A stretch of 8,983 nt of DNA from a bacterium (GTDB lineage Bacteria; Chloroflexota; Dormibacteria; UBA8260; Bog-877), in assembly GCA_021817185.1 (NCBI GenBank), contig JAKAVU010000109.1, positions 1 through 8,983 of the forward strand. The letters run 5' to 3'. Shown piece by piece: positions 1 through 8,983 of the stretch. Each line of letters opens with the position of its first letter. The first letter of the stretch is position 1. A program made the position numbers and the translations under genes. The notes beneath the pieces were generated by a model. That model saw only the letters and a program-made list of their open reading frames with translations, did not search any database and had not been told where the DNA came from.

Positions 1-446
1 CTGTCCCCCAGGACCAGGCGCAGGGAGATCACCTGGCTCAGGCGCAGGTCGGCGACCCGCACCAGATCGCGCAGGAACGGAAAGGCGAGCGGCACCAGCT
101 GGTTCCGCAGGCGGTTGCGCACCGCCTGCACCGGGTTCTCGGCGGTCGTCGCCAGGCTGCGGTCGCGGAAGGCCATCACGATGACCTCGTCGGTGAGGGC
201 GATGGGGTCGGTCCACGAGTATGCCTCGCCACTCAGGGTGCAGTCGACGAAGAGCTCCCGGGCCGGGAAGAGGCGAAGCCGCTCGGCCAGCCGGCTCATG
301 ACCGAGGCCTCGCCCTCGACGAAGAAGGGCACGTCGGCCGGCTGATCCTCGCGATCTCCGGCTGCGTACCGCACCGAGAAGCCCACGTTGTCGACGCCGA
401 ACAGCGGGTTCGGAACCTTGATCCAGAGATCAGCAGCGTTGGCCAC
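1..446 (-). CDS. Hypothetical protein, 5' part only (runs off the left edge)
   Basis: About 148 residues are visible, beginning MANAADLWIKVPNPLFGVDN. I do not recognise the family. The frame stays open to the window edge and has protein-like composition: mixed hydrophobic, Asp/Glu and Arg residues, several Phe and one Trp near each end of the first half. The last part, from about residue 100, is rich in Arg and Leu and could form amphipathic helices. No signal peptide or membrane span is seen. The GTG at 446 is chosen because the frame upstream holds no ATG or GTG before an in-frame TAG. The only Shine-Dalgarno-like sequence is a weak AAG, so an unled or short-leader start is possible. It is divergent from the dehydrogenase at 602, and the two share a 155-base intergenic region. 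The overlapping opposite-strand frames are low-complexity Arg/Ser/Pro shadows. Confidence 0.6.
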   Translation of the reverse strand, partial: MANAADLWIKVPNPLFGVDNVGFSVRYAAGDREDQPADVPFFVEGEASVMSRLAERLRLFPARELFVDCTLSGEAYSWTDPIALTDEVIVMAFRDRSLATTAENPVQAVRNRLRNQLVPLAFPFLRDLVRVADLRLSQVISLRLVLGD

Positions 447-457
447 CTTGAGATCTG

Positions 458-463
458 AGCATA
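458..463 (-). promoter_or_regulatory. Possible -10 box TATGCT for the left-edge gene
   Basis: TATGCT (TANNNT type) lies 11 bases upstream of the GTG at 446 on the minus strand. It sits inside a small palindrome, CTGAG-N5-CTCAG (455-469). The predicted transcript would have only a few leader bases. There is no convincing -35 hexamer, so this is a weak call based on position and on similar boxes elsewhere in the window. Confidence 0.25.
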
Positions 464-525
464 ACTCAGCCGTGGCGGCCGCGTCGCCGGTCTCCGGGCG
501 GCCGCCTCGGAGCTTCTCTGACGGC

Positions 526-531
526 TACGAT
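526..531 (+). promoter_or_regulatory. Possible -10 box TACGAT for the dehydrogenase gene
   Basis: TACGAT is the best TANNNT match in the divergent intergenic region reading rightward. It would place the transcript start near 538, giving a leader of about 64 bases that holds the inverted repeat at 541-570 and the Shine-Dalgarno at 590-595. No recognisable -35 element is present. Confidence 0.25.
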
Positions 532-540
532 CGGGGGGAG

Positions 541-570
541 CCAGGTGGGCAACCGGGCCGCACCACCTGG
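541..570. promoter_or_regulatory. Perfect 8-bp inverted repeat in the dehydrogenase leader (operator or hairpin)
   Basis: CCAGGTGG (541-548) and CCACCTGG (563-570) are exact reverse complements separated by 14 bases. The repeat lies just downstream of the candidate -10 at 526-531 and ends 20 bases before the Shine-Dalgarno. It could be a two-fold symmetric repressor site or a leader hairpin. GC-rich DNA makes such repeats by chance fairly often, so the regulatory role is inference. Confidence 0.35.
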
Positions 571-601
571 AGGTGCGCGCCGGCGGCCCAGGAGGCATCA
601 G

Positions 602-1573
602 ATGCGGGCTGCGTTTTTCGAGAGCCACGGTCCGGCCCACGAGGTGATCCGGGTGGGGGAGGTGGAGGATCCCGAGCCGGGGCCCGGGGAGGTCAGGGTC
701 AGGCTCCGCTATTCAGGGGTGAATCCCACCGACTGGAAGTCTCGCAGCGGGGCCACCCCGGGACGCCTCGACGGCTACCAGATTCCCCACCACGATGGCG
801 CCGGAGACATCGACCGGGTGGGTGAGGGCGTGGACCCGGGCCTGATCGGACGGCGAGTGTGGGTCTGGATGGCAGCGGCGGGCCGCCGGTTCGGCACCGC
901 CGCAGAGTACACGGTGGTCCCTCGCACTCAGGCGGTCCCTCTCCCGGACGGGGTCTCCTACGAGTTGGGAGCCAGCCTGGGAGTGCCCGCCATGACCGCT
1001 CACCGGTGCCTGCTGGCGGATGGCGAGGTCGAAGGCAAGGCGGTCCTGGTGGCAGGCGGGGCGGGCGCGGTCGGCCATTTCGCCATCGAGCTGGCCAAGT
1101 ACCACGGCGCGCGCGTGGCCACCACCGTCAGCGGACCCGAGAAGGCCGAGCTGGCGAGCGGCGCCGGCGCCGACCTGGTGGTGAACTACCGCCGCGAGGG
1201 GGCCCTGGACCAGCTGAAGGCCTTCGCGGTCCCCTACGACCGGATCGTCGAGGTGAATCTCACCGCCAATCTGGGGCTGGATCTTGCCCTGGCCGGGACC
1301 CCCACATCGATTGTCGTCTACGCGGCGACCGGTCAGGATCCGGTGCTGCCGGTGCGTGCCTGCATGAACACCAACGCCACCCTGCGCTTCGTGCTGCTGT
1401 ACGGGGTGCCCCGGGCAGCCCTGGAAGAGGCCGCCGCGGACATCACCCGGGCGCTCGAGGTCGGCGCCCTGAGCGAGCTTCCGGTGCACCGCTTCTCCCT
1501 GGAGGACTGCGCCAAGGCTCAGGATGCGGTGGAGGCGGGTACGGTGGGGAAGGTGCTGCTGGAGATCTCCTGA
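602..1573 (+). CDS. NADPH:quinone oxidoreductase-type (zinc-free MDR family) dehydrogenase
   Basis: A 323-residue member of the medium-chain dehydrogenase/reductase superfamily, quinone oxidoreductase branch; these cytosolic enzymes use NADPH to reduce quinones or enone-type substrates. The N-terminal GroES-like domain is at about residues 1-115, with the SGVNPTDWKSRSG segment at 38-50, where Asn41 stands where zinc-binding alcohol dehydrogenases carry Cys. No structural zinc cysteine cluster is seen. The Rossmann domain follows, with VLVAGGAGAVGHFAIELAK at 148-166, an AxxGxxG-type nucleotide motif. Length is normal. The ATG at 602 is preferred over the GTG at 545 because AGGAGG (590-595) lies 6 bases before it and homologous proteins begin with this MRAAFF-like strand; the 19 extra residues from 545 are Arg/Pro/Gly filler. 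It is transcribed alone and converges on coaE with 20 bases between stop codons. Substrate cannot be read from the sequence. Confidence 0.9.
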   Translation: MRAAFFESHGPAHEVIRVGEVEDPEPGPGEVRVRLRYSGVNPTDWKSRSGATPGRLDGYQIPHHDGAGDIDRVGEGVDPGLIGRRVWVWMAAAGRRFGTAAEYTVVPRTQAVPLPDGVSYELGASLGVPAMTAHRCLLADGEVEGKAVLVAGGAGAVGHFAIELAKYHGARVATTVSGPEKAELASGAGADLVVNYRREGALDQLKAFAVPYDRIVEVNLTANLGLDLALAGTPTSIVVYAATGQDPVLPVRACMNTNATLRFVLLYGVPRAALEEAAADITRALEVGALSELPVHRFSLEDCAKAQDAVEAGTVGKVLLEIS

Positions 1574-1599
1574 GGCGCTGGTGTCGGGCCAGCTCAGGA
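1568..1599. terminator. Stem-loop across two convergent stop codons (possible bidirectional terminator)
   Basis: TCCTGAG (1568-1574), a GCG bulge and CTGG (1578-1581) pair with CCAG (1589-1592) and CTCAGGA (1593-1599) around the loop TGTCGGG. This gives 11 base pairs with one 3-base bulge. The TGA of the dehydrogenase (1571-1573) pairs with the antisense of the coaE TGA (1594-1596), so the hairpin contains both stops. No T-tract follows on either strand, so it would be a non-canonical terminator or a 3'-end protecting structure. Confidence 0.45.
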
Positions 1600-2211
1600 A
1601 CCGAAACGGAGTTCCTTCTGCCAGAGGTCGAAAACCTGGGTCCTGGTCTGCTCCTCGGTTCCCGAGTTGTCCACCACCCAGGTCGCCAGTTCGCGCTTTT
1701 GGTCGATCGGCATCTGCGCCGCGATCCGGGCCTGCGCCTCCGCCTCGCTCAGCCCCGAGCGTTCCATCAGGCGTCGGAGCTGCAGCTCGGGCCTGAGGTA
1801 GGCCAGCACTATGGTGGTGAACTCGCCCGCCCGACCGATCTCAAACAGGAGGGGGATCTCGTAGACGACCAGGCGAGCGCCGGCGGCGGCCTCGGCTCGG
1901 ATCGCCTCACGGCTGAGCTCGGCGACTATGGGGTGGACGATCGCCTCCAGGGCCACCCGCTCGTGAGGGTCCCGAAACACGAGCTCCGCCAGCCGCTTGC
2001 GGTCCAGATGCCCCTCTTCGGTCAGCATCCCCGGCCCGAACCTGGCGACCACCGACCTCAGCCCCTCACTCCCGGGGGCCACCGCCAGTCTCGCGAGCTG
2101 GTCGGCGTCGACTATCCTGGCCCCCAGCTCCTCCAGCATCCGCGCCACTGTGGACTTACCGGTGGCGATCCCACCGGTAAGGGCAACCACCCGGGAGGAC
2201 CGCTCAGCCAC
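1594..2211 (-). CDS. coaE: Dephospho-CoA kinase
   Basis: A 205-residue enzyme, the usual CoaE length, that phosphorylates the 3'-hydroxyl of dephospho-CoA with ATP in the last step of coenzyme A synthesis in the cytosol. The Walker A loop GGIATGKST is at residues 13-21, followed by the DADQLAR segment (35-41) typical of the family. IVHPIV is at 91-96 and the EIPLLFE strand at 118-124. The LID-type region RLMERSGLSEAEAQARIAAQM comes next, and the chain ends in a normal WxxE/D-rich tail. The GTG at 2211 is chosen because it puts the P-loop at the usual distance from the N-terminus and overlaps the stop of the upstream coiled-coil gene by 8 bases, suggesting translational coupling. An open frame back to 2322 exists but adds only Ser/Pro/Gly residues overlapping the neighbour. 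GTG at 2190 is a shorter alternative. Confidence 0.93.
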   Translation of the reverse strand: MAERSSRVVALTGGIATGKSTVARMLEELGARIVDADQLARLAVAPGSEGLRSVVARFGPGMLTEEGHLDRKRLAELVFRDPHERVALEAIVHPIVAELSREAIRAEAAAGARLVVYEIPLLFEIGRAGEFTTIVLAYLRPELQLRRLMERSGLSEAEAQARIAAQMPIDQKRELATWVVDNSGTEEQTRTQVFDLWQKELRFGS

Positions 2212-2833
2212 CTGGTGACGGCCGCTCGGCGGGACGCGGGAGGTCCCCCTTCGGCCTGGGCCTGACGAAGCAGCGGTCGGGGTCGAGGAGCCGCTCCAGC
2301 CGCGTGCCGGGGGTGTGGACACGCACCCCCTTGCGGGCTGCCACCCCGAAGTCCCAGCCCGACTGGTACAGCCGCCGGGCAGAAGCCAGGTCGGCCACGG
2401 TCTCGACCCGACTTCCGTCGGTCATCTGCAGGGTGGGAGACCGACTGCCCGGGTAGCCCAGGGCCACCACTCCGCCGGTCTCCAACAGGAACTCCAGCTC
2501 CGCGAACGGCAGCTCACCGAACGGGGGCGGCTCGGCCGCCTCCACCAATCGCAGCAGCGACAGCGCCTGGCCCTCCTGGACGTCCGCCCTCACTCGGCGG
2601 CGCTCGGCCAGGTGACGCTGGCGCTCGCGCCGCCGGAGCTCGGTGGCCAGCAGTTCCTGGCGCCGGTTGAGCTCAGCCATGCGCGCTTGCAGAGGTGCCA
2701 TCTCAACTCGCAGGGCCCGCTCGGACGCTGCGAGCTCGGCCTGAATCCGCTGCAGCTGCGCCTCGTCGAGCCCGCTCAGGTCGTCCCACTCGGCGCGGTC
2801 GGAGGCGGGCGCGCCCCCCTCCTGCTGCTTCAT
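2204..2833 (-). CDS. Hypothetical coiled-coil protein upstream of coaE
   Basis: A 209-residue soluble protein that I do not recognise. Residues about 20-95 are a long charged helix rich in Glu, Arg, Leu, Ala and Gln with heptad-like spacing, predicted to be a coiled coil. A compact domain of about 100 residues follows, containing FLLETGGVVALGYPGSRSP and TDGSRVETVADLASARRLYQ; the tail is Pro/Arg-rich. No membrane span, signal or catalytic motif is evident. The ATG at 2833 has AAGGGG directly against it, too close for normal Shine-Dalgarno use, but a TAGGCT box ends 6 bases upstream, fitting a leaderless transcript. Its stop overlaps the coaE start, so the two are probably co-translated; that does not prove a shared function. 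The opposite strand has a 192-residue open frame, which I take as a shadow. Confidence 0.72.
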   Translation of the reverse strand: MKQQEGGAPASDRAEWDDLSGLDEAQLQRIQAELAASERALRVEMAPLQARMAELNRRQELLATELRRRERQRHLAERRRVRADVQEGQALSLLRLVEAAEPPPFGELPFAELEFLLETGGVVALGYPGSRSPTLQMTDGSRVETVADLASARRLYQSGWDFGVAARKGVRVHTPGTRLERLLDPDRCFVRPRPKGDLPRPAERPSPGG

Positions 2834-2838
2834 CCCCT

Positions 2839-2844
2839 TAGCCT
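2839..2844 (+). promoter_or_regulatory. -10 box TAGCCT for the enoyl-CoA hydratase gene
   Basis: TAGCCT (TANNNT type) lies 41 bases before the hydratase ATG. It would give a leader of about 35 bases that includes GGGAGG (2875-2880). It shares five bases with the opposite-facing TAGGCT, making a symmetric bidirectional -10 element in the 52-base divergent region. There is no clear -35. Confidence 0.35.
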
Positions 2845-2845
2845 A
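2840..2845 (-). promoter_or_regulatory. -10 box TAGGCT for the coiled-coil/coaE pair (leaderless spacing)
   Basis: On the minus strand TAGGCT is followed by six bases (AAGGGG) and then the ATG at 2833. Transcription would therefore start at or next to the start codon. No good -35 hexamer is seen. The box overlaps by five bases a TAGCCT box facing the other way. Confidence 0.4.
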
Positions 2846-2885
2846 CTGGCTGCGGGATGGACCGAGCGTGCACCGGGAGGAAGCG

Positions 2886-3662
2886 ATGACTGAGGTCGTG
2901 AGGCGGGAAAGGGAGGGCCGGGTGGGCTGGCTGATCGTGGACCATCCCCCGGCCAATGCTCTCAACCGGGCCGTGCTCGCCGGTCTGCGGGCCGGACTTC
3001 GGGAGTTCGAATCAGACCGGAGTCTGGCGGCCGCGGTGGTGACCGGGGCGGGTGACCGATTCTTCGTCGCCGGGGCGGACATCAAGGAGTTCGTGAGCGA
3101 TGGCCCCGACGCCACCCTGGACAAGATCGCCGACGGGCAGCGCCTCACCCTGGAGATGGAGAGTTCCCGATTGCCCATCGTGGCCGCGGTGAACGGATTC
3201 GCGCTGGGGGGCGGGCTCGAGCTGGCCATGGCCTGCGACCTGCGGATCGCCAGCCGCAGCGCCCGCCTGGGTCAGCCGGAGATTCTGCTGGGGATCATCC
3301 CGGGCTGGGGCGGCACCCAGCGCCTGCCCCGGCTGGTCGGCCGCGGCCGGGCGCTGGAGCTTTTGCTGAGCGGCGACCAGGTGGATGCGGAGCGGGCCCT
3401 GTCCCTGGGTTTGGTGAACCGGTTGGCGGATCCGGAGAACCTCCACCGGGAGGCACAGGCGCTGGCCGAACAACTCGGGCAGCGGGCACCGCTGGCCGTG
3501 GCCGCCATCAAGAGAGCGGTCTCCGACGGCCTGGACCGGCCCCTGGAGGCGGCGCTGGCGGTGGAGCTGTCCCAATTCGACGCCGCTTTCCGCAGCGACG
3601 ATGCCGGGGAGGGCATAGCCGCCTTTTTGGAGAAGCGCTCCCCGCACTGGGCGGGCAGCTGA
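2886..3662 (+). CDS. Enoyl-CoA hydratase (crotonase family)
   Basis: A 258-residue crotonase-fold enzyme, full length for the family, predicted to add water across the double bond of trans-2-enoyl-CoA in fatty-acid beta-oxidation. The oxyanion-hole strand FFVAGADIKEF is at residues 59-69 and the second CoA-binding segment NGFALGGGLELAMACD at 103-118. Both catalytic glutamates of true hydratases are present: Glu112 in GGGLELAMACD and Glu132 in GQPEILLG, matching Glu144 and Glu164 of the rat mitochondrial enzyme. That favours hydratase over isomerase or other crotonase activities. GWGGTQRLPRL follows, and the C-terminal helices look normal. The ATG at 2886 is chosen because GGAGG (2876-2880) lies 5 bases before it; a GTG at 2868 would add six residues and is less likely. 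It starts the plus-strand acyl-CoA block and is divergent from the coiled-coil/coaE pair. Chain-length preference cannot be told. Confidence 0.93.
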   Translation: MTEVVRREREGRVGWLIVDHPPANALNRAVLAGLRAGLREFESDRSLAAAVVTGAGDRFFVAGADIKEFVSDGPDATLDKIADGQRLTLEMESSRLPIVAAVNGFALGGGLELAMACDLRIASRSARLGQPEILLGIIPGWGGTQRLPRLVGRGRALELLLSGDQVDAERALSLGLVNRLADPENLHREAQALAEQLGQRAPLAVAAIKRAVSDGLDRPLEAALAVELSQFDAAFRSDDAGEGIAAFLEKRSPHWAGS

Positions 3663-3682
3663 TGGGCCCAGCCCCTACTCCA

Positions 3683-3688
3683 TACCAT
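3683..3688 (+). promoter_or_regulatory. Possible -10 box TACCAT before the small membrane protein
   Basis: TACCAT lies seven bases before the GTG at 3696 and 28 bases before the better-supported GTG at 3717. It could start a separate transcript for the small membrane protein and FeS oxidoreductase with about 20 leader bases, including AAGGAGG. The -35 position is a poor match, and read-through from the hydratase gene is also possible. Confidence 0.3.
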
Positions 3689-3716
3689 TTGCCGGGTGAG
3701 CCCGAAGGAGGCGACG

Positions 3717-3881
3717 GTGCCGGCCCAGCCTGACGACCCCAACCGGACGGCCCACGGCGCGCGGCGCCGTCAAGGGCCATTCTGGATCGACGAACCCAGC
3801 TGGTTCTGGGTCGTCTGGGCCGTGGTGGTGCTTCTGGGGGTGGCTCTCTTCGCCCTGGCCATGAGCTTCGACCACCCTTGA
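3717..3881 (+). CDS. Small single-span membrane protein coupled to the FeS oxidoreductase
   Basis: This 54-residue protein is not recognised as a named family. Residues 1-25 are polar and Arg-rich (PDDPNRTAHGARRRQ), then comes an aromatic Trp-rich stretch, FWIDEPSWFWVVW (about 22-34). One hydrophobic helix follows, to about residue 50, and the chain ends in FDHP. The positive N-terminal side suggests the amino end stays in the cytoplasm. The GTG at 3717 is preferred because AAGGAGG (3705-3711) sits 5 bases before it; GTG at 3696 would add seven residues (MSPKEAT). Its TGA overlaps the TTG start of the next gene (bases TTGA), so the two are almost surely translated together. Inferred role: a small accessory or stabilising subunit of the membrane FeS oxidoreductase, like other tiny single-span subunits of respiratory enzymes. 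The strong Shine-Dalgarno and stop/start overlap argue that the gene is real. Confidence 0.75.
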   Translation: MPAQPDDPNRTAHGARRRQGPFWIDEPSWFWVVWAVVVLLGVALFALAMSFDHP

Positions 3882-5902
3882 TCTGGCTCAACACGGCCGC
3901 GGCGGTGGTCCTGATGGCGGCCACCGGGGTCCTCTTCTGGCGGCGGATCGGTCCGCTGGTGAGGTCCATGCGCCGGGCCCAACCGGAGGCGCGGCTGGAC
4001 CACCCAGCCAGCAGGGTGAGGGGGGTGCTGGTGTTCGTGCTGGGCCAGAAGCGGCTGCTCCGCTGGCCGTTCTCCGGGGTCGCTCATCTCCTGATCTTCT
4101 GGGGCTTCGTGATCCTCAACCTGGAGATCCTCCAGTCCGGGCTGGAGGCGCTGGTGCCCCCGCTCAACCTCGATCAGCAGTACTGGTGGGGGCCGGTGGC
4201 CTTCCTCGAGGACCTGCTCGCGGCGGCGGTGCTGGTGGGGCTGGCGCTGGCGGCGCTCAACCGCTACCTGCTGAGGCCCCGCCGCTTTCAGGGCAGTCAC
4301 CAGCGCGACGCCACCACCATCCTTGTGCTCATCGCGGTCGTGATCGCCACCCAGCTCGGCATCTACGGCACCCAGATCGCGGCCGGAGCGGACCAGGTCG
4401 TCAATCTGCGTCCCTTCTCGGATGCGGTCTCCGCCCTCTTCCGCGGCCTCCACGGGGAGTCGATCTGGGCCTGGCACGAGTTCTTCCTGTGGGCGCACCT
4501 CCTGGTGGTGGCGGGCTTTCTGGTCTACCTGGCCCGGAGCAAGCACCTGCACATACTGACCGCGGTTCCCAACGTGTACGCCCGCGACCTGGAGCCCGCG
4601 GGCCGGCATCTCCCCATGCTGGACATCGAGCAGGCGGACCACTACGGGCTGGCCCGTGTGGACCAGTTGACCTGGAAGCAGGAGCTCGACCTCGCCACCT
4701 GCACCGAGTGCGGGCGCTGCCAGGTGCACTGTCCCGCCTTCAACACCGGCAAGCCGCTCTCGCCCAAGCTCTTCATCACCGACCTCAGGGACGCCTGGTA
4801 CGCCCAGGCCCGCGGCGAGCCTGCCCCCCGCGGCTACTGGGTGGGGGACCAGCCCTCGGGTGAGCCGCCCCCGGACGGGGGTCTGCTGGACTGGACGGTC
4901 CTTGAGGAGACCCTCTGGTCCTGCACTACCTGCGGCGCCTGTGTCGAGCAGTGCCCCGTCCTGATCGAGCACGTGCCCGCCATCGTCGAGATGCGTCGCT
5001 CCTTGGTTCTGGAGGAGTCGCGCATCCCTCGGGAGGCGCAGAAGGCGCTCGAGTCCCTGGAGCAGCGGGGCAACCCTTACGCGATGGCTCAGTCGTCGCG
5101 CATGCGCTGGGCGGAGGGGCTTAAGGTTCCGCGCCTGGCCGACAACCCCGACGCCGAGTACCTGTACTGGGTCGGTTGTGCCACCGCCTTCGACGAGGCC
5201 AACTGGCCCGCCGCCCGGGCGACCGTGGCGATCCTGAAGGCGGCCGGCGTCGACTTCGCCGTGCTCGGGGAGGAGGAGACCTGCAACGGCGACCCGGCCA
5301 GGCGTCTGGGCAATGAGTACCTCTTCCAGACTCAGGCGCAGCAGGTGGTCGACAAGCTGGAGCAGCGGGGGGTGCGGCGCATCATCGCCAGCTGCCCGCA
5401 CTGCTTCAACACCCTGGCCAACGAGTACCCCGACGTGGGTGGCAGGTACGAGGTCATCCACCACACCCAGCTGCTCAGCCGGCTCCTGGACCAGGGCCGG
5501 ATCCAATTGACGGCGGGGATCGGTCAGGGTCGCATCACCTATCACGATCCCTGCTATCTGGGGCGGTGGAACCAGGAGTACGACGCCCCCCGTCGCCTCC
5601 TCAGGGCAATCCCGGGGGTCCAGCTGCTGGAGATGGCCCGAAGTCGGGGTGAGGCGATGTGCTGCGGCGCCGGCGGGGGCAGGATCTTCATGGAGGAGAA
5701 CCGGGGCGAGCGGGTCAACCGGGTCAGAGTTCGGCAGGCCCAGGAGACCGGCGCCGAGCGGGCGGCGGTGGCGTGCCCGTTCTGCGCCACCATGTTCCAG
5801 GAGGGGATCTCCTCCCAGTCCCTGGGGCCGGAGCTGGGCAGTGCCGATGTGGCGGTGCTGGTGGCCGAGGCGATGGGCCTGGAGTACCTGCCCCGGAGCT
5901 GA
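3878..5902 (+). CDS. Membrane (Fe-S)/heme b oxidoreductase, candidate ETF:menaquinone oxidoreductase
   Basis: A 674-residue protein with the architecture of HdrD/DUF224-type FeS oxidoreductases fused to a NarI-like membrane domain, such as the EMO enzymes of fatty-acid oxidisers that pass electrons from reduced ETF to menaquinone. Five hydrophobic segments lie at about residues 2-21, 66-88, 107-130, 146-168 and 200-220. Candidate heme b ligands are His70, His200, His207, His223 and His225. Two [4Fe-4S] motifs follow: Cys275/278/281/285 and Cys349/352/355/359, each ending in CP. Two CCG-type cluster domains follow. The first has Cys434, CNGDPARR at 469-476 and Cys506/509; the second has Cys559, CCG at 595-597 and Cys633/636. 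The TTG start is supported by the 4-base overlap with the small membrane gene and because later starts would cut the first helix. No ETF gene is in the window. A heterodisulfide or glycolate-type acceptor reaction is less likely given the acyl-CoA neighbours. Confidence 0.82.
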   Translation: MIWLNTAAAVVLMAATGVLFWRRIGPLVRSMRRAQPEARLDHPASRVRGVLVFVLGQKRLLRWPFSGVAHLLIFWGFVILNLEILQSGLEALVPPLNLDQQYWWGPVAFLEDLLAAAVLVGLALAALNRYLLRPRRFQGSHQRDATTILVLIAVVIATQLGIYGTQIAAGADQVVNLRPFSDAVSALFRGLHGESIWAWHEFFLWAHLLVVAGFLVYLARSKHLHILTAVPNVYARDLEPAGRHLPMLDIEQADHYGLARVDQLTWKQELDLATCTECGRCQVHCPAFNTGKPLSPKLFITDLRDAWYAQARGEPAPRGYWVGDQPSGEPPPDGGLLDWTVLEETLWSCTTCGACVEQCPVLIEHVPAIVEMRRSLVLEESRIPREAQKALESLEQRGNPYAMAQSSRMRWAEGLKVPRLADNPDAEYLYWVGCATAFDEANWPAARATVAILKAAGVDFAVLGEEETCNGDPARRLGNEYLFQTQAQQVVDKLEQRGVRRIIASCPHCFNTLANEYPDVGGRYEVIHHTQLLSRLLDQGRIQLTAGIGQGRITYHDPCYLGRWNQEYDAPRRLLRAIPGVQLLEMARSRGEAMCCGAGGGRIFMEENRGERVNRVRVRQAQETGAERAAVACPFCATMFQEGISSQSLGPELGSADVAVLVAEAMGLEYLPRS

Positions 5903-5961
5903 CGGCCCAGACCCAGCCAGCAGCCCGGGGGGCCGGGGCCCGACCGGGTCCGGTCCATCGC

Positions 5962-5967
5962 CATAAT
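5962..5967 (+). promoter_or_regulatory. -10 box CATAAT with leaderless spacing before the epimerase fusion
   Basis: CATAAT differs from TATAAT at one position and is followed by six bases (CACGGG) and then the GTG at 5974. CCGACC (5940-5945), 16 bases upstream, shares GAC with the -35 consensus TTGACA. No Shine-Dalgarno is present. Together this suggests a leaderless transcript for the epimerase-mutase pair inside the 71-base gap after the FeS oxidoreductase. Confidence 0.45.
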
Positions 5968-5973
5968 CACGGG

Positions 5974-6768
5974 GTGGCCGCCCCCGTCCGCGGATTGCAG
6001 CTCGACCATGTCGCCATCGCGGTGCGAGACCTGCCCGCCGCCACCGCCGCGCTGGCCGCCCGGTTGGGGGTCGTGGCCGGTCCCGTGGAGAGGGTGGAGC
6101 CGGACGGCATCGACGCCACCTTTCTGCAGCTGGGAGGGCAGTCGCTGGAGCTGCTGAGCCCGACGCGGCCAGACTCGAAGGTCGCGAGATTCCTGGAGCG
6201 CCGCGGAGAGGGGCTGCACCACCTGGCCTACCGGGTGGATGACATCTTCCGGGAGCTGAGGGGCTGGGCTGAGCGGGGAGCGGAGCTGATCGACCCCGAG
6301 CCCCGGCCCGGCTCCAGGGGGAGGCTGGTCGCCTTCATCCATCCGGCCACCGAGCACGGGGTCCTCACCGAGCTGGTGCAGGCCCCTCGGGAGCTGTCCA
6401 GCCGGCCGGAGGAGTCGGCTCCCCGCGTGGTCTGTCTGTGCGGGTCGCCGCGTTTCCCGGATGCCTTCCGGCGCGCCCAGCAGGAGGAGACGGCGGCGGG
6501 CCGGATCGTGCTCAGTGGCGGCGTCCAGTCGGCCCGGTCACAGCGGGCCACGGACATCGAAGCCGGCTCGGTCGAGCCGGGGGCCACCCGGGGGACCGAG
6601 CTGGACCCGATTCAGCGACGCAAGCTGGATCTGGCCGACGAGGTCCTGGTGCTCAATGTCGGCGGCTATCTCGAGGACGCCACCCTCGGCGAGATCGCCT
6701 ACGCCAGGGCCCAGGGCAAGCGGCTGCGCTGGTTGGAGCCTCCCCGGGAGCCGGCTGGTGAGCGCTGA
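5974..6768 (+). CDS. Methylmalonyl-CoA epimerase fused to a nucleoside 2-deoxyribosyltransferase-like domain
   Basis: A 264-residue two-domain protein. Residues 8-136 are a complete vicinal-oxygen-chelate methylmalonyl-CoA epimerase that interconverts the (R) and (S) forms for the mutase encoded next. The [11 protein letters not shown] strand carries His12, LELLSP carries Glu59, [14 protein letters not shown] carries His82/His83, and VLTELVQ carries Glu133; these are the expected metal-site strands. After a linker of about 13 residues, residues 151-255 resemble small stand-alone proteins of the nucleoside 2-deoxyribosyltransferase superfamily. That part has [10 protein letters not shown] (152-161), [18 protein letters not shown] ending at 232, and [11 protein letters not shown] with Glu240 in the place of the family's catalytic Glu. 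Its substrate is unknown. The frame is open through the linker, so this is a true fusion in this sequence. The GTG at 5974 gives the normal epimerase N-terminus. The stop overlaps the mutase start by 11 bases. Confidence 0.85.
6408..6429 (+). promoter_or_regulatory. Possible internal ribosome site before the second domain of the epimerase fusion
   Basis: GGAGGAG (6408-6414) is followed after 12 bases by an in-frame GTG (6427-6429, residue 152), exactly where stand-alone relatives of the second domain begin. Initiation here would make a separate protein of about 113 residues. The spacing is longer than ideal, and the motif also encodes linker residues Pro-Glu-Glu, so it may be coincidental. 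Confidence 0.25.
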
Positions 6769-8332
6769 GGATTCCGCGTTCAGGACCGGCTCCGGCCTGC
6801 CCCTGCGGCCGCACTACGATCGCGATCCGGCGCGTCCGGAGCCGCCACCACCAGGGGAGCCCCCCTATACCAGGGGGATCCGCGCGGACGGTTACCGGCG
6901 ACGCCTCTGGACCATGCGCCAGTACGCGGGCTTCGGATCCGCCGCCTCCACCAACCAGCGCTTCCGATATCTGTTGGAGCGCGGTCAGACCGGGCTGTCG
7001 GTGGCGTTCGACCTGCCCACGCAGATGGGATACGACTCCGACGACGAGATGGCCAGGGGGGAGGTCGGCAAGGTGGGGGTGGCGATCGACCACCTGGGCG
7101 ACATGCGGACCCTGCTCGCCGATCTGCCCCTGGAGCGGGTGACAACCTCGATGACGATCAACGCCCCCGCCAGCCTTCTGCTCCTGCTCTATCAGCTCAC
7201 CGCCGCGGAGCGGGGCATCCCCGGGGCCGCACTCGGGGGGACGATTCAGAACGACATCCTCAAGGAGTACGCGGCTCGCGGCACCTACATCTTTCCGCCC
7301 CGGCCGAGCATGCGCCTGATCACCGACACCTTCGCCTACTGCCACCGGGAGCTGCCGCGCTGGAACCCGATCTCCATCTCCGGCTACCACATCCGGGAGG
7401 CGGGAGCGACCGCGCCCCAGGAGCTCGCGTTCGCGCTCAGCAACGGGCTGGCGTATGTCGAGGCCGCCCTCGCGGCGGGACTGGAGCTGGCTGAATTCGC
7501 GCCGCGGCTGAGCTTCTTCTTCAACGTCGACAACGACCTCTTCGAGGAGGTGGCGAAGTTCCGCGCGGCCCGGCGGCTCTGGGCGACGCTGATGGCCGAG
7601 CGCTTCGGGGCCACCGATGCCCGCTGCCTCCAGCTGCGCTTCCACGCCCAGACCGCGGGCGCGACCCTGACCGCGCAGCAGCCGCTCAACAACGTGGTCC
7701 GGGTCGCGCTGCAGGCGCTGGCCGCGGTGCTGGGAGGGGCCCAGTCGCTGCACACCAACGCCTACGACGAGGCGCTGGCCCTGCCCTCGGAGCCGGCGGC
7801 CACCCTGGCGTTGCGCACCCAGCAGCTGCTGGCCTACGAGTCGGGGGTGGCCAAGGTCGCCGATCCGCTGGGTGGCTCCTACCTGATCGAGTCCCTGACC
7901 GAGTGGCTGGTGAGCGAAGCCGCCGCCCTCATCACCGAGGTGGACAGCCGGGGCGGAGCGGTGGCCGCCATCGAGCAGGGCTACTACCAGGAGCAGATCC
8001 AGGAGTCGGCCTACCGGCACCAACAGGAGGTCGAGTCCGGGGAGGCGGTGGTGGTGGGGGTCAACCGGTTCCAGGATGATCTGCCCGTCGAGGTCCCCCT
8101 GCTCAAGGTGGACCCGGAGCTGGAGGCGCAGCAGGTGCGCGGCCTGGCGGAACACCGCCTGGCCCGGTCACAGGCGGCGGTCGCCGGGGCTCTGGATGGG
8201 GTCGAGCGGGCCGCTCAGGGAGGGGCCAACCTGCTGCCACCCATGCGGGAGGCGCTGGCGGCCGGCGCCACCGTCGGCGAGATATGCGACCGGCTGCGGG
8301 AGGTCTTCGGGGTCTGGCGCCCTCCCGTGTAG
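6758..8332 (+). CDS. Methylmalonyl-CoA mutase, catalytic chain (split type, no B12-binding domain)
   Basis: A 524-residue TIM-barrel chain of an adenosylcobalamin-dependent acyl-CoA mutase, converting (R)-methylmalonyl-CoA to succinyl-CoA reversibly. With Propionibacterium numbering offset by 33, the substrate-site residues are kept: Arg49 (82), Thr52 (85), Arg54 (87), Tyr56 (89), Thr162 and Gln164 in [10 protein letters not shown] (195, 197), Arg174 (207) and His211 in ISGYH (244). Tyr89 plus Arg207 mark methylmalonyl-CoA rather than isobutyryl- or hydroxyisobutyryl-CoA mutases. Positions matching Tyr75 and Met78 are instead Arg42 and Gly45. The chain ends normally after [11 protein letters not shown]; the cobalamin-binding domain (DxHxxG) is missing and must be a separate subunit encoded elsewhere. 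The GTG at 6758 has GGGAG (6746-6750) 7 bases upstream and overlaps the epimerase stop by 11 bases, indicating co-translation. The open frame back to 6461 is a shadow of the epimerase gene. Confidence 0.9.
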
Positions 8333-8335
8333 GCC

Positions 8336-8983
8336 TCAGGCGCTGCGCCGCCCGGGCCGAGCTGGTACCAGGTCGGGCCGCCCCGGCTCTCGCGGCGGAC
8401 CGAGGCGGGAGCCGTGGTCGGGGCCCGGGAGCATCCAATCCGCCAGGGCCTGGGCCCGCAGCGGCTTGGAGTAGCGGAATCCCTGCACGATCTCGCACCC
8501 GTAGGAGCGCAGCGCCACCTCCTGGGCCCTGGTCTCCACTCCCTCGGCGACGACGTCCATGTCCAGGTCTCGGCCCACCGAGAGGAAGGCTCGGATCACA
8601 GCCGAGCTGCGGCGGTCCCCTGGCAGGCCCATCACGAACACCCGGTCGACCTTGAGGATCTTGACCGGCAGGTCGACCAGGCGGGCCAGGTTCGACTGCC
8701 CGGAGCCGACATCGTCCAGGGCGCTCAGGACGCCGTGCTCGGCGAGCTCCTGGACCGTGGTCGCGACGCGGGGCTGCAGCTGCGGTCCGAGCTCGTGCTC
8801 GGTGATCTCCACGACCAGACGGTCGCTGGGGATCCCGTGGCGGCCCAGGGACGCCAGGACCCGGTCGCAGAAGCCCGGGTCGGTGAGCTCGGTGGGGGCG
8901 AAGTTGACTCCCAGGATCAGCTGGTCGATGCCCTGGGAGCCCCACCCCGCGAGGTCGGAGAGGGCCTGGTCCAGGATCCAGTC
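8336..8983 (-). CDS. EAL-domain cyclic-di-GMP phosphodiesterase, C-terminal part (runs off the right edge)
   Basis: The last 215 residues are visible, entering the window at DWILDQALSDL. This is the second two thirds of an EAL domain, which hydrolyses the second messenger cyclic di-GMP. Visible catalytic and metal-binding positions are Asn27 (VNFAP), Glu59 (EITE), Asp90-Asp91, Lys111 (LKVDR), Glu147 (EGVET) and Gln167 (QGFRYSKP). The EAL signature itself and any sensor or GGDEF domain lie beyond the edge. Loop 6 reads DDVGSGQSN rather than the common DDFGTGYSS; the two aspartates are kept, so activity is likely but not certain. A tail of about 30 residues rich in Pro, Gly and Arg follows the domain. 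The gene converges on the mutase gene with three bases between stop codons and is probably unrelated to its metabolism. GTG at 8812 is inside the domain and is not the true start. Confidence 0.88.
   Translation of the reverse strand, partial: DWILDQALSDLAGWGSQGIDQLILGVNFAPTELTDPGFCDRVLASLGRHGIPSDRLVVEITEHELGPQLQPRVATTVQELAEHGVLSALDDVGSGQSNLARLVDLPVKILKVDRVFVMGLPGDRRSSAVIRAFLSVGRDLDMDVVAEGVETRAQEVALRSYGCEIVQGFRYSKPLRAQALADWMLPGPDHGSRLGPPREPGRPDLVPARPGRRSA

Follow-up and report, generated by a model that had tools for sequence, protein, structure and literature searches.

A methylmalonyl-CoA epimerase fused to a domain of predicted nucleoside 2-deoxyribosyltransferase fold with an apparently decayed pocket

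An 8,983-nucleotide stretch of a genome of the Dormibacteria lineage (GenBank assembly GCA_021817185.1, contig JAKAVU010000109.1, positions 1 to 8,983; hereafter the window) encodes a protein in which a methylmalonyl-CoA epimerase is fused to a C-terminal domain of predicted nucleoside 2-deoxyribosyltransferase (NDT) fold. The fusion is real and recurs in other database proteins. Alignments indicate that the pocket of the second domain has decayed while its scaffold was better retained, and that the epimerase half has undergone no comparable decay. On balance, the favoured interpretation is an active epimerase carrying a captured pseudo-NDT domain, which would have been kept for a non-catalytic task, most likely dimerisation or assembly. 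The fusion, its clustering on the tree of the domain, the predicted fold, the pocket decay with better scaffold retention and the conserved epimerase residues were all computed; that the domain has lost its activity and serves in assembly is inferred.

Recurrence of the fusion

The protein of the window (P0001) is read from an uninterrupted frame of 264 codons between a GTG at 5974 and a TGA at 6768. An open frame alone was rejected as proof of coding. Over 6385-6765, two of the three forward frames are free of stops and 2353 of 20000 mononucleotide shuffles stay open; because GC-rich DNA leaves chance frames open, the frame is by itself weak coding evidence. Better evidence comes from the recurrence described below and from the GC content by codon position, which is similar in the epimerase part (0.78/0.48/0.91), the C-terminal domain (0.76/0.52/0.89) and the downstream mutase gene (0.73/0.49/0.91).

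The same two-domain order was found in five database proteins: P0002 (99% identical), P0003 (80%), P0220 (68%), P0221 (65%) and P0222 (61%), P0221 bearing the NCBI name 'VOC family protein [Candidatus Dormibacteria bacterium]'. Because these five proteins have it, the fusion is no assembly artefact. Together with P0001 they form the six fused rows used below; the window's protein and P0002 are counted as one, giving five distinct fusions. The in-frame fusion proposed in a preliminary description of this DNA, which was made from the sequence alone, is thereby borne out, and the domain order that it suggested seeking in relatives recurs in five distinct sequences. A sequencing error, frameshift or missed stop joining two separate genes was rejected as practically impossible: chance frames do stay open in GC-rich DNA, but the identical junction recurs in sequences as diverged as 61% identity, which excludes the hidden stop that the same description had named as a possible refutation.

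The motifs quoted in that description are present in the protein, CGSPRF at residues 156-161, LNVGGY at 227-232 and a third motif of ten residues at 240-249. The linker between the two domains is flexible, with a mean predicted local distance difference test score (pLDDT) of 53 over residues 141-150 and slight conservation among the fusions.

Searches of 292, 5, 4, 2, 1, 43 and 9 genomes gave no listed match spanning both halves. Across the 28 loci L001-L028, L006, from an Acidimicrobiales genome, had an epimerase 84% identical to a database epimerase; elsewhere the highest such identity was 61.5% (L013). For the window's Fe-S protein the highest identity was 48% in 79 genomes, and for its dephospho-CoA kinase it was 49% in 292 genomes. 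Given these low identities, the searched genomes were taken as non-Dormibacterota.

The C-terminal domain, its predicted fold and its parent family

The C-terminal domain has no match in Pfam, NCBIfam or PHROGs, nor among the sequences of solved structures, where a profile search returned chance matches only (best E 0.33). PF05014 likewise did not match the window's domain, and 3 of 49 rows reached it at E <=1 (best 0.012). In the structure model, the domain is predicted to have the NDT/DNPH1 fold: its best solved-structure matches are NDT and MilB, with DNPH1 lower, in agreement with the NDT-like domain named in the preliminary description. Beyond this predicted fold, the Glu position of these N-glycosidases is kept in three of the five distinct fusions. 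In contrast to NDT, DNPH1 and MilB, the window's domain lacks a PF05014 match, the pocket Ser and the Tyr-Asp-Glu triad of NDT, the triad places being occupied by Cys154 (by register), Gln214 and Glu240. DmtZ, a phage NDT-family dAMP hydrolase/transferase, resembles the domain's family in being viral, of the same fold class and part of nucleotide metabolism; it differs in being active, with the family catalytic triad (PMC12884076), and the comparison with it is by description.

The direct parent of the domain is an uncurated family (V-C-L-C-G-S-T-R-F ... L-H-x-R-K-I-D-L-A-D-E) with 657 protein relatives at E <=0.001. Its non-fused members match over the whole domain, with E down to 1.6e-26 and at most 59% identity among the non-fused matches listed. 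Of these 657, the 98 newly found ones among the matches listed are 101-203 residues long (48 of them <=125). Further relatives lie at 228 loci in viral contigs, in 93 plasmid records, mostly of Streptomyces (77), and in 4 of 50,697 phage records. A few listed members come from bacterial genomes (e.g. P0188, Deinococcus), and none was found at E 1e-8 in 292 genomes, in a search run without a positive control. A scan of 49 members turned up no fitting curated model in Pfam, NCBIfam or PHROGs.

Precomputed Pfam accessions place other members in fusions with domains that are presumably a cytidine/dCMP deaminase (P0101, P0114), ThyX (P0103), a LexA-type DNA-binding domain (P0073, P0108) and a methyltransferase (P0078). 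MazG was matched in one of 45 longer viral members; such fusions would tie the family to deoxynucleotide metabolism by association. The neighbours of viral members (149, or 143 after removal of six near-copies) are mixed and include DNA methylase (4/143) and one each of thymidylate synthase, ThyX and adenylosuccinate synthetase, among the 25 of 60 families listed. The parent family has Cys, His and Glu at the Tyr, Asp and Glu places of NDT and is possibly a new family of nucleotide N-glycosidases. Two viral members, L097 2311-3318 and L112 2191-3813, carry ParB-type and ASCH/DUF3850-type regions by eye. HTH_ParB, ASCH and DUF3850 were each matched in one of the 45 longer viral members.

Pocket and scaffold conservation

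Conservation was assessed against a set of 296 further members, made up of the best 80 of 228 viral relatives and of 216 database proteins (P0004-P0219), which are the matches other than fusions among the best 120 of 377 and the best 120 of 657. Across these, 37 columns are conserved at >=95%. Ten pocket columns were set by mapping to DNPH1, namely the G-S-T-R loop, His67, Tyr85, Gly87, Ser89, Thr90 and Glu93 in family numbering (P0001 residues 157-160, 214, 232, 234, 236, 237 and 240), with GSPR taken from the alignment endpoints as the counterpart of DNPH1 G27-S28-I29-R30.

In the pocket columns, the fusions depart from the family in 26 of 50 cells and the other members in 29 of 2960; in the scaffold columns, the counts are 11 of 135 and 162 of 7992. 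The scaffold is thus also somewhat looser in the fusions, with 7 of the 11 departures in P0222. Each fusion has 3 to 7 pocket departures, against at most 2 in any other member, and over all 37 columns the ranges are 6 to 10 and 0 to 6, respectively. On this alignment, the pocket has decayed in the epimerase fusions with better retention of the scaffold.

Individual positions follow the same pattern. The parent family keeps His, Ser and Glu (His67 in 293 of 296 members, with Tyr in three; Ser89 and Glu93 in 296/296), whereas the epimerase-fused members have lost His and Ser in all cases and Glu in two. The place of His67 is taken by Q, Q, D, T and S in the five distinct fusions. The loop Thr of G-S-T-R is replaced in every fusion, and P0003 additionally lacks Ser14, Arg16 and Thr90. 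Glu93 has become Gln in P0220 and P0221, a change that matches E104Q of DNPH1. According to a study of human DNPH1 (PMC10603095), E104Q is inactivating and D80 protonates the leaving base. Judged from these positions, the second domain is probably no longer an enzyme and would have lost N-glycosidic cleavage.

The epimerase half

Residues 9-136 match TIGR03081 over the full model with 113.5 bits, about 1.5 below the curated cut-off of 114.95, and Pfam Glyoxalase_4 with 72.3 bits (cut-off 27); this half also aligns to solved epimerases. It resembles methylmalonyl-CoA epimerase (TIGR03081; solved structure 6wf6) in the whole domain, in its putative metal ligands and in the mutase gene that adjoins it in the window, and differs in the added C-terminal domain of about 110 residues as well as in its score.

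H12, E59, H83 and E133, which we take to be the metal ligands by comparison with the H, E/Q, H, E set of the Propionibacterium enzyme, are present in all six fused rows. Among 109 epimerase-only relatives, H83 and E133 occur in 109/109 and H12 in 107 (2 gaps), and position 59 holds E in 55 relatives and Q in the other 54. E42 is found in all fused rows and aligns with Glu in 54 of the 109 relatives. A catalytic Glu/Glu pair of the epimerase is named in PMC8142540. Over 34 conserved epimerase columns, none is changed in four distinct fusions and P0222 has two conservative changes. The alignment thus indicates no decay comparable to that of the pocket, and as part of the favoured interpretation the epimerase half would, on balance, be active.

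The preliminary description had called epimerases normally single-domain, which fits the 120 best epimerase matches listed: 109 are shorter than 200 residues, six look tandem by eye and five are this fusion. By eye, P0225, P0240, P0241, P0242, P0244, P0266 and locus L005 8001-8789 (263-332 residues) look like tandem epimerases in which the second copy has diverged; P0242 is named Chloroflexi and L005 is from Acidimicrobiales. Such tandem epimerases (276-332 residues; e.g. P0242) share the two-domain layout of the fusion but differ in a second domain that reads as epimerase and not as NDT fold. The L005 frame, of 263 residues, in which the match reaches residue 153 with no stop following, was rejected as a further case of the epimerase-NDT fusion: its second half has no parent-family match and reads epimerase-like.

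Phylogeny

In a tree built from 69 of the 302 rows of the C-terminal domain, a branch supported at 100/99 separates the six fused rows from the rest, and none of 500 label shuffles was as clustered. In a tree of the epimerase half (the six fused rows with 70 of the 109 epimerase-only rows), the fused rows group with the unfused P0223, support 100/96, with P0223 placed beside P0222. Both trees are midpoint-rooted and short of columns. With P0223 inside, the fused rows need two changes, and 2% of bootstrap trees give one. At the P0223/P0222 node, two long branches meet (94/0, with a warning from the tool), and the placement of P0223 is unsure.

The simplest reading of these trees is a single fusion event, with P0223 (142 residues) having later lost its second domain, or having been misplaced from just outside the group, as a lineage that split off immediately ahead of the fusion. 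The preliminary description had held that close relatives with the two domains as separate unlinked genes would speak against it; a close relative without the fusion does exist in P0223, inside the fused group, but only as firmly as its uncertain position allows.

Genomic setting

The features of the window that bear on the fusion are collected in Table 1. A mutase gene beside the fusion is an observation made in the window. With the mutase start at GTG 6758, which was our choice, the first 11 nucleotides of the mutase frame lie within the end of the fusion gene, an overlap that suggests translational coupling of the two genes. A Pfam scan found no B12-binding domain in the mutase chain, and no mutase small subunit was recognised among the scanned frames of the window. 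Because the chain has no B12-binding domain, its partner chain may be encoded outside the window. No promoter or terminator pattern was found in 5700-7000. A frame of 209 residues at 2204-2833 on the reverse strand, with no Pfam match, adjoins the dephospho-CoA kinase frame (1594-2322, reverse strand).

Table 1. Coordinates of the fusion gene, its parts and its neighbours in the window
Feature	Position	Strand	Basis or remark
Fe-S oxidoreductase, CCG and 4Fe-4S domains	3878..5902	+	upstream, separated from the fusion gene by 71 nt
Fusion gene, methylmalonyl-CoA epimerase and degenerate NDT/DNPH1-fold domain (predicted)	5974..6768	+	264 aa, GTG start, TGA stop
Epimerase (VOC/glyoxalase-fold) domain, residues 9-136	5998..6381	+	TIGR03081 and Pfam matches
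Linker, residues 138-150	6385..6423	+	low model confidence, poor conservation
Degenerate NDT/DNPH1-fold domain (predicted), residues 150-256 (about)	6421..6741	+	model, fold matches, pocket loss
GSPR, first pocket loop, residues 157-160	6442..6453	+	family G-S-T-R
Q214, place of family His and DNPH1-type catalytic Asp	6613..6615	+	aligned to Asp by hhalign
A236, place of family Ser	6679..6681	+	Ala in all five distinct fusions
E240, place of family Glu and DNPH1 nucleophile	6691..6693	+	kept in the window's protein
Methylmalonyl-CoA mutase catalytic chain, 524 aa	6758..8332	+	PF01642 703 bits, TIGR00641 699 bits

Possible roles of the second domain

In the favoured interpretation, the domain would have entered a Dormibacteria-like lineage from a family found in viral contigs, plasmids and metagenomes. 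After the fusion, the pocket would have decayed and the Rossmann-like scaffold would have been kept. The domain would now most likely be a non-catalytic module for dimerisation or assembly, joining epimerase subunits to one another or holding them beside the mutase. Dimerisation or assembly is ranked ahead of other roles for two reasons. The stretch kept best, K-[IL]-D-L-A-D-E-[VI]-L-V-L-N-V-G-G, passes through the last part of the third predicted helix and the strand that follows, and in DNPH1 the third helix forms the dimer interface (PMC10603095). The third helices of the fusion and DNPH1 were matched by order and presumably correspond. The second reason lies in the pocket, where the substitutions vary from fusion to fusion and so speak against a new ligand common to all.

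The main alternative, possible but doubtful, is a passenger: a domain joined by chance that has at no time acquired a role and is now being lost by drift. In 15/15 pairs of the six fused rows, conservation is lower in the C-terminal domain than in the epimerase half (P0001/P0003, 0.78 vs 0.91); the domain also contains in-frame indels, and P0222 is a long branch. P0223, a close epimerase relative without the domain, may be a case of loss; it weighs against a retained function, as the domain may be dispensable, and lends the passenger some weight. Unlike uniform drift, however, the changes spare the scaffold relative to the pocket, and the known fused proteins remain full-length.

A ligand sensor is distinctly unlikely; here the domain would take up a nucleotide, or CoA by its adenine-nucleotide end, and would regulate the epimerase while cleaving nothing. 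Relatives of the fold bind nucleotides and DNPH1 E104Q binds its substrate uncleaved (PMC10603095); two fusions have the matching change, and the substrate of the partner enzyme is a CoA ester. The pocket, however, varies by fusion (214 Q/D/T/S; 232 Y/H/R; 234 E/D/G; P0003 without Ser and Arg) and offers no shared new site.

More improbable still is an altered enzyme, the idea of the preliminary description, whose changed site would still cleave or transfer some nucleotide-linked metabolite. The window's protein does have E240, S158 and R160, and the Glu is invariant in the parent family. This is set against the absence of the putative catalytic His, the pocket Ser and the Thr from all five distinct fusions, and the replacement of the nucleophile Glu by Gln in two, which leave the proposed hydrolysis of a damaged cofactor unsupported.

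Implications

The fold and the epimerase are of known kinds; new are their combination and the disarmed state. In the open-licence PubMed Central literature, no paper was found on an epimerase-NDT fusion, none joining nucleoside deoxyribosyltransferase with pseudoenzyme, and none joining Dormibacterota with methylmalonyl-CoA. A bolder possibility, which we consider unlikely, is that in Dormibacteria a core carbon-metabolism enzyme captured a viral-type nucleotide domain, which was then disarmed and rebuilt to serve regulation or assembly in the propionate pathway, perhaps as a nucleotide-state sensor or as a clamp between the epimerase and the adenosylcobalamin-dependent mutase.

Within this one group, the set of lost pocket residues varies from fusion to fusion, and these residues are near-invariant in 296 other relatives; this looks like a change from enzyme to pseudoenzyme in progress. 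The fusions also serve as a warning that the family name of a fused domain is a poor guide to metabolic function. Finally, they point to a large NDT-fold family, present in viral contigs and plasmids, for which the searched libraries contain no curated model.
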